The position numbers were made by a program, and so were the translations under genes. A stretch of 64,000 nt of DNA, from assembly GCA_017513445.1 (NCBI GenBank), contig JAFXFS010000018.1:124001-188000 (forward strand), given 5' to 3'. Shown here piece by piece: positions 9,497 to 49,340 of this stretch. The notes below the pieces were generated by a model. That model saw only the letters and a program-made list of their open reading frames with translations. It was not told the origin of the DNA and did no database searches. This stretch comes from Bacteroidales bacterium (GTDB lineage: Bacteria; Bacteroidota; Bacteroidia; Bacteroidales; UBA932). How positions within the stretch are numbered: position 1 is the stretch's first letter; each line of letters starts with the position of its first letter.

Positions 9497-10111
9497 GTCA
9501 TTGCTGGCGTAGCCGGCAATCTATTGTGCCACCTGGAACGGGTGATGTGCCTCAGAATGCACTCTAACAAGGGTTAGATGTGCCAGGTGGAAGGGTAAGC
9601 ATTGCCACCTGGGGCGGGTGATGTGCCTCAGAATGCACTCTAACAAGGGTTAGATGTGCCAGGTGGAAGGGTAAGCATTGCCACCTGGGCGGGTGATGTA
9701 CCTCAGAATGCACTCTAACAAGGGTTAGGTGCTCCAGGTGGGTATGGATGCGTTTCCACCTGGAACGGGTTATATGCCTCAGAACGCACTCTAGCAAGGA
9801 TTGGGTGTGCCAGGTGGAAGGAACAGATTCCCGAGGCAAGCTCGGGAATGACGATATCGAAATGTCATTGCTGTGCGAAGCCGGCAATCTGAACATTCTT
9901 CGTCATTGCTGTGCAAAGCACGGCAATCTGAACATTTTTCGTCATTGCTGGCGAAGCCGGCAATCTGAACATTCTTCGTCATTGCTGTGCGAAGCACGGC
10001 AATCTGTTAGGCGTGCCAGGGGGAAACAGATTCCCGCGACTGGTGTCGCAGGAATGACAAAATATTTGAAGTGTTGCTGCAGGAATGACGCAATCTTTGA
10101 AGTGTTGTTGC
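9497..10111. repeat. Gene-free block of tandem palindromic repeats
   Basis: The 9426-10190 gap holds no convincing gene. Four tandem copies of a repeat bounded by CCACCTGG and CCAGGTGG occur at 9529-9590, 9605-9666, 9681-9741 and 9756-9817, with starts 75-76 bases apart. Each unit can fold on its ends. There follows a perfect 9-bp stem ATTCCCGAG/CTCGGGAAT at 9827-9849. Next come four units starting GTCATTGCTG at 9864, 9902, 9941 and 9978, about 38 bases apart, each able to form ATTGC(T/C)GGC/GCCGGCAAT. A single related unit lies at 9497. Degenerate relatives (CAGGAATGAC) run to about 10090. The same stems recur near 22.77 kb and 49.1-49.3 kb. Confidence 0.9.
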
Positions 10112-22699: not shown

Positions 22700-22764
22700 A
22701 TGATTATTTCTGGAAAATAATAGCAATATACTAATTTTATACCATAAAGAATGCTTTGAAACAG

Positions 22765-22787
22765 ATTCCCGAGACGAGCTCGGGAAT
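22765..22787. repeat. Dispersed palindromic element between pyrE and the fimbrial locus
   Basis: A 9-bp inverted repeat ATTCCCGAG (22765-22773) / CTCGGGAAT (22779-22787), followed by GACGAAAT. The stem is identical to those at 9827-9849 and around 49.2 kb. It lies just after the stop of the 1156-residue protein gene and could serve as its mRNA 3' hairpin. Confidence 0.8.
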
Positions 22788-22797
22788 GACGAAATAA

Positions 22798-44045: not shown

Positions 44046-44537
44046 ATGAAAAGGATTATTTGCATTTTACTTACTACCATTGTTATAAGTTTTACATTTA
44101 ATGCTAATGCGACAAATATTTACAGAAAATATTCAAACAATAAAGATGTTCAAGCAGTAAAGGTTGGCAAATTTATGCTCAAACTCGCAAGAACATTTGC
44201 AGATAGTGATGATTATGCAGAGAAAGAGGCATTAGACATTGCGATAGAGTACATTGATGATATGCGAGTTCTTATTTTTGAGGATTCAAGATATAGTACA
44301 CGCGAAAACTTATTAAATGATATAGATAACTTATCTTCAGAGGGTTACGAACTTCTAATGGATGTTACCGATGATGACGACAGAGTGAGAATCTATACAT
44401 TGGAAAAAAGGGATGTAATCAGGGAACTTATAATTTTTGTCTCTGACGGCGAGGATGATATGGTATTTATGGATATTAAAGGAAGAATTCCTATTGATAA
44501 AGTTGGAGAATTAGTAGCATTAAGCAATATAGATTGA
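44046..44537 (+). CDS. DUF4252 domain protein, first copy
   Basis: A 163-residue exported protein with signal peptide MKRIICILLTTIVISFTFNA(NA). The body contains YSNNKDVQAVKVGKFMLKLA, then a middle helix, then GYELLMDVTDDDDRVRIYTL and ELIIFVSDGEDDMVFMDIKG, the DUF4252 pattern of small envelope proteins associated with ECF sigma factors in Bacteroidota. The biochemical role is unknown. The stop overlaps the start of the sigma gene by one base (TGATG), implying translational coupling. It is paralogous to the fourth gene of the cassette. Confidence 0.85.
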   Translation: MKRIICILLTTIVISFTFNANATNIYRKYSNNKDVQAVKVGKFMLKLARTFADSDDYAEKEALDIAIEYIDDMRVLIFEDSRYSTRENLLNDIDNLSSEGYELLMDVTDDDDRVRIYTLEKRDVIRELIIFVSDGEDDMVFMDIKGRIPIDKVGELVALSNID

Positions 44538-45046
44538 TGAATGTAGATTTATTTAACAAGACTTATATTCCACTACACGAAACATTTTATAGAGTTGCAT
44601 ATAGATATTTAGAAAATCAAGAGGAGGCCAAAGATGTTGTTCAAGAGATCTACCTAAAACTGTGGGAGAATCGAGAGAGCTTAAAAAGTATAAAAAATGC
44701 TGAAGCATACGGTGTCACTCTCACAAAAAATAGGTGTTTGGACATCTTGAAATCGGCAAGGGCTCAGGCAAATAAAAAAAGTGCCGAGAATTATTTTGAT
44801 AAAATTGCAACCTTTACTGCCCCAAAAATAGAGGAGTCAGAAAAGATTACACTATTAAGAAAAATTGTTGACAGGTTACCCGAGAGGCAAAAAGGGATTT
44901 TCTACTTAAGATACTTTAGAGATTTATCTATAAAAGAGATTGCGACACTCACTTCACTAAACGAAGTCAATATTCGTGTTCAGCTCGTAAGAGCAAAAAA
45001 GATTGTAAAAGAACAATTTGAAAAAGGAGAAATTTATGAAAGGTAA
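44537..45046 (+). CDS. ECF-type RNA polymerase sigma factor
   Basis: A 169-residue sigma-70 family protein. Region 2 is AYRYLENQEEAKDVVQEIYL...KLWENRESLK and region 4 is LPERQKGIFYLRYFRDLSIK followed by EIATLTSLNEVNIRVQLVRA with a helix-turn-helix. A linker with no conserved domain separates them. It lacks the extra N- and C-terminal regions of primary sigma factors. It probably transcribes its own cassette, as is usual for ECF factors, and is controlled by the membrane protein encoded next. The TTG at 44534 is rejected in favour of the ATG at 44537. Confidence 0.92.
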   Translation: MNVDLFNKTYIPLHETFYRVAYRYLENQEEAKDVVQEIYLKLWENRESLKSIKNAEAYGVTLTKNRCLDILKSARAQANKKSAENYFDKIATFTAPKIEESEKITLLRKIVDRLPERQKGIFYLRYFRDLSIKEIATLTSLNEVNIRVQLVRAKKIVKEQFEKGEIYER

Positions 45047-45449
45047 AGATTCAATAAAAGAGCTTTTAGATATCGAATTCCAGAGGGTTGAAGTACCTGC
45101 TGATTTGAAAGATAGGCTTATGCAAAGTATTGAAGATGAGCCTATTACTCAAACGACGAAAGACAACATAAGAAAGATTGATTTCTCTGTTAAAAGCATT
45201 GCCGTAGCTGCTTCGCTACTACTTATTATATCACTTACCGGAGGTTTGGTTTATAATTGGCAAAGAGAGAGTTACACACCAACCGACACCTGTTCGACTC
45301 CGGAAGAGGTTATTTATGAAACTCAGAGGGTATATCAGATTCTTGCATCTGCACTCAATGGAGGAGTCTCTCAAGCAAAATTACACACCGAGGCGGCCCA
45401 AAATAAGACTAAAGAGATTTTTGATCAAATAACTATAAAACACAAATAA
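45036..45449 (+). CDS. Anti-sigma-like single-pass membrane protein
   Basis: A 137-residue protein: a cytosolic N-terminal segment of about 50 residues (DSIKELLDIEFQRVEVPADL...LMQSIEDEP), one membrane helix (about 57-78, SIAVAASLLLIISLTGGLVY), and a short outer segment. It lacks the HxxxCxxC zinc motif of ZAS anti-sigma factors. Its position, overlapping the sigma gene by 11 bases, makes an anti-sigma role likely but not proven. The start is at the ATG at 45036 rather than a TTG at 45018. Confidence 0.75.
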   Translation: MKGKDSIKELLDIEFQRVEVPADLKDRLMQSIEDEPITQTTKDNIRKIDFSVKSIAVAASLLLIISLTGGLVYNWQRESYTPTDTCSTPEEVIYETQRVYQILASALNGGVSQAKLHTEAAQNKTKEIFDQITIKHK

Positions 45450-45453
45450 AAAG

Positions 45454-45927
45454 ATGAAAAGATTTATTACAATTATAATTTTAATATCAACAATAATATT
45501 CTCTGCCAATGCACAAAATGCTCTTTATAAAAAATATGAAAAATCAAATAGCGTAACCAGAGTTTACATCTCACAGATGATGTTAGAATTGACAAAATCT
45601 GCAAATCTCCAGATGGATGACGATGTATCTGATATCATTGACAGCTTTGATTCTGTCACTGGGTTCTATCTTCTTGAGACAGAGGATCCTACATTAATGC
45701 CTGATTTGAAGAAGGACTTTATGAAGGAGGTCAATGCTAAAAAATTAGAGCTTCTTATGGAGGTAAATGATGATGACAGGGTACTATTCTACGCTCGCAA
45801 GGAGGGCAATTACTTTGCAGATGTCTATATGATTGTTGAAGATGAGAATGACGAGATAGTGGTGATAATGGTTTCAGGAAAATTATCTCAACAAAATATA
45901 AATAGACTATTGAACAATGTAGACTAA
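45454..45927 (+). CDS. DUF4252 domain protein, second copy
   Basis: A 157-residue exported protein with signal peptide MKRFITIIILISTIIFSANA(QN). The ISQMMLELTKSANLQMDDDV and LELLMEVNDDDRVLFYARK segments mirror the first DUF4252 protein of the cassette, so a gene duplication is likely. The spacing of 4 bases after the anti-sigma-like gene indicates one four-gene transcript. Function unknown. Confidence 0.85.
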   Translation: MKRFITIIILISTIIFSANAQNALYKKYEKSNSVTRVYISQMMLELTKSANLQMDDDVSDIIDSFDSVTGFYLLETEDPTLMPDLKKDFMKEVNAKKLELLMEVNDDDRVLFYARKEGNYFADVYMIVEDENDEIVVIMVSGKLSQQNINRLLNNVD

Positions 45928-45944
45928 TATATTTAATAATAAAA

Positions 45945-46001
45945 AGAGCATTATCTGATAAGAATAGATTGACTTATAACAGATAATGCTCTATTTTTTT
46001 A
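45945..46001. terminator. Bidirectional terminator between convergent genes
   Basis: A perfect 13-bp stem AGAGCATTATCTG (45945-45957) / CAGATAATGCTCT (45980-45992) with a 22-base loop. It is flanked by ATTTTTTT on the right and AATAAAAA on the left, so it can stop transcripts in both directions. Confidence 0.85.
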
Positions 46002-46009
46002 TTTATCTA

Positions 46010-47437
46010 CTAAATAACACCGTCGCCTCTTAACTCATCAACATATTTACTGATGCGTCTCAACTGAACAGGGATTGCAATTCTCTGAGGACAATCATCT
46101 ATACACTTGCGACAATTGATACAATGATCTGCTTGTCTTAATTTCGGTACAGATCTATCATAACCAATCAAAAATGCACGACGTGCCTTCTTGTAGTTGT
46201 CATCATCCACACTTTGAGTAATATTACCCTCATTCACACATTTATTATAGTGTAGCAAGACTCCAGGAATATCGATTCCGTAAGGGCAAGGCATACAATA
46301 TTCACAGTCATTACAAGGAATTAGAGGATATTTACTGATAATATCGGCTGTCTCTTCCAAATACTCAAAATCTGCCTCAGAACACTTTTCAAGTGGTGAA
46401 TATGTTCGTATATTGTCTTGCAGATGCTCCATATATGTCATACCACTGAGGACTGTCAATATATTATCAAATGATCCAACCCAGCGGAAAGCCCACGATG
46501 CCACACTATCCTGCGGTTTCTGGCTCTTTAGTCTCTGTATCACATATTGAGGAAGATTTGAGAGGCGACCACCCAATAATGGCTCCATAATAATTGCCTG
46601 TATTCCCCTCTTAGTCAGCTCATTATAAAGATATTCCGCATTCTCTTCTCTATTGGAAGCGTGACGCCAATCCAAATAATTCATTTGAATTTGGACAAAA
46701 TCCCAACGATATTTACCCTCATCGTGAAGTTTTAGCATATGGTCGAAAATTCTCACATCACCGTGGAAAGAGAAGCCAAGATTTCTAATTCTTCCTGCCT
46801 TTTTCTCCTCAACAAGAAAATCAAGAACTCCATTATCAAAGAATCTGTAATTTAGAGTTGCAAATGAATCTCTTCCACCTCCAATTGAGTGCAGTAGATA
46901 ATAATCAATGTAATCAATCTGGAGTGCCTTCATTGAGTTATGATACATCTCTACTGAGCGTCTAAATGTCTCCTTTGGTGATAATCCTGCAGGAATTCTC
47001 TGATTTGAAAGTTTAGTAGCTACGCGGTATGATTCACGAGGATGTCTCGAAAGAGCAATACCTGTAACAGTCTCTGATTGCCCCATACCATAAACAGGAG
47101 CTGTATCAAAGTAATTTATACCGTGTTCTAATGCATAATCTATCAACTCATTAACTCTCTCTTGGTCAAGAACTCTCTTCGTAGGATCATTTGGATCATC
47201 TTTAGTTGGCCAACGCATACATCCATAACCCAGAATAGATATCTTATCACCATTCACATTCGAGGTTCTATAGGTCATTTTATCCTTTGGTACTTCTAAA
47301 GTATGACTACCCTCTGGTGATAAAAGTGTTGATGCCCCCTTTCCACAACTTGATAATGCTGATGTTGCAGCAACTGCAGTGGCTCCTAATCCTATTTTCT
47401 TAAGAAAATTTCTTCTATTAATGTTATCTCTTTTCAT
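46010..47437 (-). CDS. Exported ferredoxin-type aldo/keto reductase
   Basis: A 475-residue protein. The N-terminus NRRNFLKKIGLGATAVAATS looks like a Tat signal, and ALSSC (Cys31) resembles a lipobox. The aldo/keto reductase barrel (about 55-365) keeps the tetrad: Asp111 and Tyr116 (FDTAPVYG), Lys142 (ATKLSN), His183 (LLHSIGG). The C-terminus has two ferredoxin-type clusters: CNDCEYCMPCP (Cys375 onward, with Cys400) and CINCRKCIDDCP (about 439-449). It belongs to the iron-sulfur aldo/keto reductases. The Tat-like leader implies action outside the cytoplasm, where NADPH is absent, so electrons may come from the polyferredoxin encoded 12 bases upstream. Export is inferred. Confidence 0.85.
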   Translation of the reverse strand: MKRDNINRRNFLKKIGLGATAVAATSALSSCGKGASTLLSPEGSHTLEVPKDKMTYRTSNVNGDKISILGYGCMRWPTKDDPNDPTKRVLDQERVNELIDYALEHGINYFDTAPVYGMGQSETVTGIALSRHPRESYRVATKLSNQRIPAGLSPKETFRRSVEMYHNSMKALQIDYIDYYLLHSIGGGRDSFATLNYRFFDNGVLDFLVEEKKAGRIRNLGFSFHGDVRIFDHMLKLHDEGKYRWDFVQIQMNYLDWRHASNREENAEYLYNELTKRGIQAIIMEPLLGGRLSNLPQYVIQRLKSQKPQDSVASWAFRWVGSFDNILTVLSGMTYMEHLQDNIRTYSPLEKCSEADFEYLEETADIISKYPLIPCNDCEYCMPCPYGIDIPGVLLHYNKCVNEGNITQSVDDDNYKKARRAFLIGYDRSVPKLRQADHCINCRKCIDDCPQRIAIPVQLRRISKYVDELRGDGVI

Positions 47438-47449
47438 AATGGTACTCCT

Positions 47450-48970
47450 CTAAATGAATTTATGAACTTGATGACCCTCCACAACTATCGCACTAAATGG
47501 TCTTGCCGGACATAGATTTTCACAAGCTCCACATCCGATACATTTTGTCTCATCAACAGCAGGGATAGTTCTGCTCTTTGGATTATTTGGGTCCAATGCA
47601 ACCATTTGAATTGCATTGGAAGGGCAACGCGTTGCACAATTTCCACAATTTACATCATCAGTAATTACCACACAATTCTCTTTAATCCAAATTGCGTGTC
47701 CCAATTGCGTAGATGATTTATCCTCTATAGATATTGGTTTGATTGCTCCTGTAGGGCAAACTTCGGAACATTTATTACACTCTGTACGACAATAACCCCT
47801 CTCGTACGACATTTCAGGCATCATCCAGCGAGAAAGATCAGATGATGGTCTTAAAACCTGATTAGGACAAACCGAGATACAAAGTTGGCAACTTGTACAA
47901 TGCTCCTGAAGATTTTTCAAACTTAAAGAGCCAGCAGGAGTGATTGGATTGCTCCTTTTAGGAACTTTCTTATCAATAATTGGAGCAAAACCACCATCCA
48001 TTTTTATTGCTTGAGCAGATGCTGAAAGAGCTGTAGTCGCTGCAACTGCTGTAATAAATGAACGGCGTCCCATATTATCTGAATTACTCGCTTCCCTCTT
48101 GCAACTAACTGGATTTGAATTATTTACAAAACCTTTTTTGAAATTTGAGAAGGAGAATTCATATTTAATTGCATCAAATTTACAACTTTCAAGACAGTTA
48201 CCGCAAACCACACAACGAGAATGATCCACACTGAAATCGCCAATATTTATACAAGATGATTTGCATTGATAAGAACACATCTGACACTTTTTACATTTAG
48301 ATTCATCTATTTTAATCTTCATAAATGAGAATTTTGAGAAGAATCCAAGTATTGTTCCCACAGGGCAGATTGTGTTACAATAAGTTCTACCACCCCTAGC
48401 GGCAAGAATAAATATCACAACCAGTGTTATAATTGCAACTACCAACGTTGTTATCGATTTTACCCACACCTCAACGCTGTAAAAAGCATAACTGTCATAG
48501 TGTTCAGCGATGGATGCAAGTAGATTATTTCCTAATCTATAAATTGGCTGGAATAGTGAAGATGCAATCCTGCCATAAGAGCTATATGGAGCCAGTATCG
48601 AAACTAATGAATTGATACCCAAGATAATAGCAACAACAAAAATTGCTAATACTATAACTCTTAACCAACTTTTAGGTTTTGAATATGAATATGGTTTTTT
48701 ACTCTTCTTTACCTTTTTGGAACCCCAGGCAATCAAATCCTGAAATACACCCAATGGGCAGATGACTGAACAATAAATTCTACCAAAAATAAGAGTAAGA
48801 AGTATCAGAGAGAGTATAACACCTACATTTAGTGCCAAAAGTGCAGGTAAAAATTGCACCTTTGCCATCCATCCGAAATAGGTGTGAATAACTCCTGTTA
48901 AGTCTAAAAATAGCAGCGTAATTATAGTGAAGAAAACAGCTGCTAAGGAAATACGAACTCGTCTCAACAT
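47450..48970 (-). CDS. NapH/NapG-like polyferredoxin fusion membrane protein
   Basis: A 506-residue iron-sulfur membrane protein. The N-terminal part is NapH-like: about four membrane helices with two CxxxCP motifs (YCSVICPLG at 67-73 and YCNTICPVG at 198-204) and two 4Fe-4S clusters (CKKCQMCSYQC from 226, CVVCGNCLESC from 253). Residues 300-320 read MGRRSFITAVAATTALSASA, a Tat-like signal in mid-protein. The C-terminal part (about 355-506) carries four further ferredoxin clusters, including CTSCQLCISVCPN, CNKCSEVCPTG, CGNCATRCPS and CIGCGACENLCPA, resembling NapG/MauM. It probably moves electrons from quinol through the membrane to the reductase encoded downstream. A TAAATTTG box lies 27 bases upstream. 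Confidence 0.85.
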   Translation of the reverse strand: MLRRVRISLAAVFFTIITLLFLDLTGVIHTYFGWMAKVQFLPALLALNVGVILSLILLTLIFGRIYCSVICPLGVFQDLIAWGSKKVKKSKKPYSYSKPKSWLRVIVLAIFVVAIILGINSLVSILAPYSSYGRIASSLFQPIYRLGNNLLASIAEHYDSYAFYSVEVWVKSITTLVVAIITLVVIFILAARGGRTYCNTICPVGTILGFFSKFSFMKIKIDESKCKKCQMCSYQCKSSCINIGDFSVDHSRCVVCGNCLESCKFDAIKYEFSFSNFKKGFVNNSNPVSCKREASNSDNMGRRSFITAVAATTALSASAQAIKMDGGFAPIIDKKVPKRSNPITPAGSLSLKNLQEHCTSCQLCISVCPNQVLRPSSDLSRWMMPEMSYERGYCRTECNKCSEVCPTGAIKPISIEDKSSTQLGHAIWIKENCVVITDDVNCGNCATRCPSNAIQMVALDPNNPKSRTIPAVDETKCIGCGACENLCPARPFSAIVVEGHQVHKFI

Positions 48971-49059: not shown

Positions 49060-49340
49060 GACGCAGTCGTGGGAATCTTTTTCGACTTCCGTCATTCCCG
49101 AGCATATTATATCGTCATTCCCGAACTCGCCTCGGGAATCTGTTTCAATGGTTGCGACCAATAGATTGCCGACTACGCCCAGCAATGACGAACAAATACC
49201 GTCATTCCCGAGCTTGCCTCGGGAATCTGTTTCAATGGTTGCGACCAACAGATTGCCGGCTTCGCCAGCAATGACGAAAATGTGATTCAGCAATGATGAT
49301 GGTGGTGTTATGCTCAGCAATGAGGAAAATGTGATTCAGC
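49060..49340. repeat. Composite palindromic repeat, two tandem 87-base units
   Basis: Two copies begin GTCATTCCCGA at 49114 and 49201 (87 bases apart). Each joins a TTCCCGAG.../CTCGGGAA stem, a spacer GTTTCAATGGTTGCGACCA, and a second stem in which ATTGCCG(G/A)C pairs with (C/G)CAGCAAT. A partial unit lies at 49091. Degenerate CAGCAATGA copies continue to about 49340. The same stems occur at 9.5-10.0 kb and 22.77 kb. The gap 48971-49385 holds no gene. Confidence 0.85.

Follow-up and report, generated by a model that had tools for sequence, protein, structure and literature searches.

A polyferredoxin and an iron-sulfur aldo-keto reductase, apparently exported to the envelope, form a conserved gene pair in gut Bacteroidales

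Textbooks describe aldo-keto reductases (AKRs) as soluble enzymes that work with NAD(P)H; they are normally found inside the cell and ordinarily require a hydride donor. The window analyzed here, a stretch of 64,000 nucleotides from a Bacteroidales genome, encodes an AKR with a twin-arginine signal and two 4Fe-4S sites next to a membrane polyferredoxin that carries a twin-arginine signal of its own. This arrangement raises the question of whether the AKR operates in the envelope and, if so, with which electrons. An earlier note on this DNA had proposed an envelope redox system in which the reductase is fed from quinol rather than NADPH. The features of the locus are as follows.

45945..45998, no strand: long inverted repeat AGAGCATTATCTG...CAGATAATGCTCT, read directly from the sequence
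46010..47437, minus strand: Fe-S AKR, 475 aa, predicted Tat-exported lipoprotein
46091..46315, minus strand: AKR C-terminal dicluster region, C375-C449
47345..47437, minus strand: AKR N-terminal Tat lipoprotein signal, residues 1-31, NRRNFLKK ... ALSSC
47438..47449, minus strand: intergenic gap between polyferredoxin and AKR, 12 nt
47450..48970, minus strand: NapH-NapG fusion polyferredoxin, 506 aa
48002..48073, minus strand: internal twin-arginine signal of the polyferredoxin, residues 300-323 (MGRRSFITAVAATTALSASAQAIK), with an A-x-A|Q site

The polyferredoxin gene lies upstream and the AKR gene downstream, and the gap between them, measured at the 12 nt given in the earlier note, is consistent with a single transcript. 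The inverted repeat beyond the AKR gene sits between convergent genes and has A/T runs on both flanks, making it a possible bidirectional terminator; the inverted-repeat scan, whose limit its loop exceeds, did not list it. Beyond the repeat, positions 44046-45927 hold a compact regulatory cassette in which two DUF4252 proteins enclose an ECF-type sigma factor together with a small membrane protein resembling an anti-sigma factor for it. A palindromic intergenic repeat, GTCATTCCCGA[GA]CTCG[CT]CTCGGGAATC, occurs in four copies in the window (49109-49266, 22764-22790 and 9826-9852), and two of these copies belong to a near-duplicate of 71 nt that lies upstream of the polyferredoxin/AKR operon.

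The distribution of the pair was analyzed in an order-level sample of 198 Bacteroidales genomes, an AKR being counted where identity exceeded 50% across almost its whole length. The AKR was found in 31 of these genomes, this one included, and with 80 further loci taken from named genomes a total of 116 AKR loci were examined. The polyferredoxin adjoins the AKR in 99 of the 116 (directly upstream in 96, directly downstream in 3) and is absent from the adjacent position in about 15%; the pairing is held even though identity between genomes is mostly just 50-60%. The expectation of a two-gene neighborhood conserved across Bacteroidales was thus borne out. Carriers include relatives of Bacteroides, Phocaeicola, Parabacteroides, Alistipes, Odoribacter, Barnesiella and Prevotella, and the cultured ones among them (B. 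finegoldii, B. faecis, Parabacteroides, Phocaeicola) make the system open to testing. A phylum-wide sample of 296 genomes returned the AKR at E<=1e-60 in this genome only; judged by the genomes sampled, the system is probably confined to Bacteroidales. The polyferredoxin family is broader, with members in 81 of the 198 genomes at E<=1e-60.

The AKR matches the Pfam Aldo_ket_red (E=8e-39, 134 bits) and Fer4_9 families, and its predicted model matches AKR structures. The elements described in the earlier note are all in place: the NRRNFLKK motif at residues 7-14, the lipobox ALSSC ending at C31, an intact catalytic tetrad (D111/Y116/K142/H183) and two 4Fe-4S sites (C375-C378-C381-C384 and C439-C442-C445-C449). 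In the alignment of the 116 AKRs the tetrad is kept in every sequence, with the surrounding residues likewise invariant, the eight cluster cysteines in 114-116 and the lipobox cysteine in 110, while the twin arginine is RR in 114 and RK in the other two.

The polyferredoxin combines a Fer4_5 (NapH type) domain with several Fer4 domains, and NCBIfam profiles place NapH/MauN on its N-terminal part and MauM/NapG on its C-terminal part, in agreement with the reported fusion of both modules in one chain. These matches fall below the NapH and NapG cut-offs (82 vs 213 and 61 vs 179 bits), so that by its profile scores the protein is best classed as NapGH-like and not as NapGH. Four hydrophobic segments (residues 10-28, 44-62, 105-123 and 173-191) are followed by two cytoplasmic-side 4Fe-4S sites (C226-C263) and, after the internal signal, by four more (C358-C487). 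The MGRRSFITAVA segment falls at residues 300-310, as originally read, and R302-R303 directly precede a fifth, weak segment, whose hydropathy (KD 1.28) compares with 2.3-3.0 for the other segments; across the family the medians are 0.88 against 2.83, and the fifth segment is lower than the NapH-part maximum in 99 of 99 polyferredoxins. Several Lys/Arg residues occur within about 20 residues after this segment, and by the positive-inside pattern the predicted topology has a cytoplasmic N-terminus, with the first two clusters also on the cytoplasmic side. The six 4Fe-4S sites, two predicted to be cytoplasmic and four periplasmic, retain their full set of 24 cysteines in 99/99 sequences, and the internal RR is kept in about 97/99, or nearly all once RK and KR are counted. 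The predicted structure of the polyferredoxin is poor (pLDDT 63), and its structure matches are generic ferredoxins only.

In 84 of 97 polyferredoxins linked to an AKR, the end of the internal signal carries [AGS]-Q, as a rule 18 or 19 residues past the RR. Most substrates of signal peptidase I in Bacteroidetes expose a glutamine, the so-called Q-rule (PMC5837995), and because the [AGS]-Q site resembles such a site, cleavage there may release the NapG part once it has been exported.

Several features bear on export by Tat. In this genome tatA and tatC lie adjacent to each other, and a Tat-signal model run over the whole 1.62-Mb sequence points to four places, two of them the AKR and the polyferredoxin, the others being, by inspection, an amidohydrolase and a dipeptide-epimerase-like protein. 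The AKR signal matches the NCBIfam model TIGR01409 with 17.4 bits against a cut-off of 16.7. tatC is present in 31/31 sampled genomes with the AKR and in 133/167 without it, a co-occurrence expected by chance with a probability of about 0.002 by our own arithmetic, which ignores kinship. In 13 of the 80 named loci tatC follows downstream on the same strand, with a recognizable tatA just before it in 10. Related cytosolic Fe-S AKRs start where the export signal of the exported AKRs ends. As judged from this conservation, both Tat signals are under strong selection and the export signals are very well supported; neither an absence of tatC from the genome nor homologs lacking the twin arginines, the findings that would have spoken against export, turned up. 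As separate observations, tatA-tatC lies within the redox operon at L081, L084, L111, L149 and others, and a second tatC occurs in five sampled AKR genomes (G029, G055, G105, G151, G173).

Since every one of these features is conserved over about 116 loci, a chance origin is excluded, and the pair is confirmed as real and conserved. What conservation shows is the export signals, the Fe-S ligands, the tetrad, the gene pairing and the co-occurrence with tat. We consider it fairly probable that the pair constitutes a chain for electron transfer between the inner membrane and the periplasm, ending in an oxidoreductase that is exported. In such a chain, Sec would insert the four NapH-type segments and Tat would translocate the NapG-type domain with its four 4Fe-4S sites, so that the polyferredoxin would join the periplasmic face to a pool of electrons in the membrane or the cytoplasm. 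The AKR would fold and receive its two 4Fe-4S clusters in the cytoplasm before being exported by Tat and then lipid-anchored, and its C-terminal dicluster would exchange electrons with the NapG domain, a transfer that we infer. Electron flow would most likely be outward, the AKR reducing a small molecule in the envelope, and the donor would be a low-potential cytoplasmic one, such as ferredoxin, or quinol if the potential of the acceptor is high enough.

The nature of the donor is where the earlier interpretation was only partly upheld: its Tat signals, tat genes and conserved pair stand, and a quinol feed, NAD(P)H independence and reductase activity are possibilities. By textbook potentials menaquinol, at about -0.07 V, would have to reduce a simple carbonyl at about -0.2 V, an uphill step. 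Menaquinol is therefore too oxidizing for ordinary aldehydes and ketones, which calls for a lower-potential donor, a non-carbonyl acceptor or an AKR that works as a dehydrogenase. The genome encodes NQR (its operon lies within the window, at about 12.1-16.0 kb), RNF, a fumarate reductase/succinate dehydrogenase-type flavoprotein, a MenA-like prenyltransferase and a 2-oxoacid:ferredoxin oxidoreductase-like subunit, and quinone and ferredoxin are thus both plausible partners. A search of this genome returned no MenD-like TPP enzyme over the cut-off, so that the quinone may derive from a scavenged menaquinone precursor. In most AKR loci no gene for a flavin or nicotinamide donor is evident.

The dehydrogenase option corresponds to the same chain run in reverse, with the AKR oxidizing a periplasmic sugar or alcohol and the quinone pool receiving the electrons by way of the AKR clusters and then the polyferredoxin. 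Transfer from an alcohol/carbonyl couple to menaquinone is downhill, NQR and the flavoprotein make a quinone pool likely, and NapH-like modules are known to serve oxidases too, for instance ExaA (PMC8238504). The top profile matches of the AKR among solved structures are likewise sugar dehydrogenases of the L-galactose dehydrogenase group; identity to these is, however, only about 20-23%, so the substrate is not transferable to the AKR, and we found no dehydrogenase role for Fe-S AKRs. On balance we regard this direction of flow as rather unlikely.

A nicotinamide cofactor could also travel with the enzyme. Tat export of cofactor-loaded enzymes is a well-known phenomenon, and an AKR exported with a tightly bound nicotinamide dinucleotide, in the manner of glucose-fructose oxidoreductase, would not need electrons from the polyferredoxin. 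The AKR fold, the tetrad and the phosphate-loop-like P-L-x-G-G are all retained, and the closest solved folds bind NAD(P). This explanation nevertheless leaves the invariant dicluster and the near-constant adjacent polyferredoxin unaccounted for, and 106 of the 116 AKRs have Tyr at the site, assigned by AKR motifs, where NADP-dependent AKRs usually have an Arg that binds the 2'-phosphate; we therefore deem it improbable. A lost nucleotide site was considered as an argument against NAD(P)H and rejected: the GFS, MEPLxGG and LSGM motifs of the exported AKR are identical to those of cytosolic Fe-S AKRs and hence do not prove that NAD(P)H was abandoned on export.

The partner of the polyferredoxin can change. 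In 33 of 34 more distant polyferredoxin loci in Bacteroidales (L156-L190), the gene directly upstream encodes a Tat-signal DUF362 protein with its own MxRRxF start, and the internal motif of these polyferredoxins is RR or KR. In a quick tree a branch with 98% support sets them apart from the AKR-linked copies, which points to a single partner change, and the polyferredoxin accordingly looks like a general envelope electron carrier with exchangeable exported partners. The switch offers a possible handle on DUF362, a domain of unknown function. Replaceability by such a protein could also suggest that the AKR-like protein is no enzyme at all, serving as an Fe-S carrier or as a maturation or scaffold factor for another envelope redox protein, an idea that we hold to be very improbable given that the tetrad and its surroundings are invariant in 116 sequences. 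The notion that the twin arginines arose by coincidence and that the two proteins act in the cytoplasm is strongly disfavored and scarcely credible: the internal signal of the polyferredoxin taken alone does score 15.0 bits, just under the TIGR01409 cut-off of 16.7, but the conserved RR and lipobox, the tatC co-occurrence, the operonic tatAC and the weakness of the fifth segment all stand against it.

Returning to the electron-transfer chain, a more specific version would have an envelope AKR working without soluble NAD(P)H, fed by the polyferredoxin through 4Fe-4S clusters, with the NapG part freed at a Q-rule site following its export by Tat and the AKR exchangeable for DUF362. We offer this version tentatively, as possible rather than probable; if true, gut Bacteroidales would possess terminal oxidoreductases of a new class.

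Genes recurring around the AKR in the 80 loci encode DUF1893 (30/80), an ECF-S-like membrane protein (19/80), TatC (13/80), a TonB receptor of micronutrient size (7/80) and an exported flavodoxin (7/80); DUF362 lipoproteins and a second, cytosolic Fe-S AKR also recur in a minority of loci. No recurring neighbor occupies a majority of loci, and deduction of the substrate from the neighbors was rejected on this ground. None of them adjoins the pair in this window, and a search for DUF1893 found it absent from this genome. Exported flavodoxin-fold proteins stand beside the AKR in three loci devoid of the polyferredoxin (L087, L127, L147), where they may replace it. A DUF362 lipoprotein from the AKR loci bears weak similarity to the N-terminal domain of lactate racemase. 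The second, signal-less Fe-S AKR follows the exported one in the operon at L089:3653-4801, L144:9411-10559 and L149:9399-10547, and at L068:4814-5578 and L070:7604-8476 the space between polyferredoxin and AKR is taken by NADPH-FMN-reductase-like proteins, which bear a twin-arginine signal themselves. A flavinylation system was considered and rejected, the polyferredoxin having no FMN_bind domain and no ApbE/FMN-bind cluster being recognized among the recurring neighbors.

Components of this system have known counterparts. Glucose-fructose oxidoreductase of Zymomonas is of a normally cytosolic oxidoreductase type and is exported folded by Tat; its fold differs and it holds NADP, where the AKR has Fe-S clusters. 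The cytosolic, COG1453-like Fe-S AKRs share the barrel, MEP-L-x-GG, LSGM and the C-terminal cluster cysteines with the exported group, but they have neither a Tat signal nor a lipobox, their sequences starting with the barrel, and the His338 that is invariant in the exported group is Gln in the four cytosolic relatives read. With NapGH of the periplasmic nitrate reductase the polyferredoxin has in common the domain order, the CxxxCP motifs and the four clusters of the NapG part, differing in being fused and in scoring well below the NapH and NapG cut-offs; NapA or NapB was not recognized among the recurring neighbors. Fused NapH-NapG proteins with an internal Tat signal were recognized in 2017, and their Tat dependence was shown with RR-to-KK and tat mutants (Tooke et al., PMC5449189). 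The dual Sec/Tat polyferredoxin of MLMS-1 described there (Q1NSB0) resembles ours in joining NapH-type segments and cytoplasmic-side 4Fe-4S sites in one chain, with RR before a weak fifth segment and four 4Fe-4S sites outside; it has three cytoplasmic-side clusters instead of two, and here an AKR is encoded alongside and A/G/S-Q follows the segment in 84/97. NapH-like membrane proteins have been proposed as exchangeable modules for diverse extracytosolic oxidoreductases (Meheust et al. 2021, PMC8238504), and a modular NapH-like carrier is common to those systems and to this one, which lacks an FMN-binding domain and a recognized ApbE nearby and has an Fe-S AKR as its terminal protein. Searches of openly licensed papers returned no description of the AKR/polyferredoxin pairing or of a DUF362/polyferredoxin system. 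Tat polyferredoxins of the fused type are known, as are modular chains with NapH-like proteins, and the pairing with an exported Fe-S AKR is the part that we did not find described in these papers. In many gut Bacteroidales an AKR is apparently exported to the envelope beside a membrane-anchored Fe-S carrier, and exported Fe-S lipoprotein AKRs with a dedicated carrier would point to an unrecognized periplasmic redox metabolism in the main order of gut bacteria.
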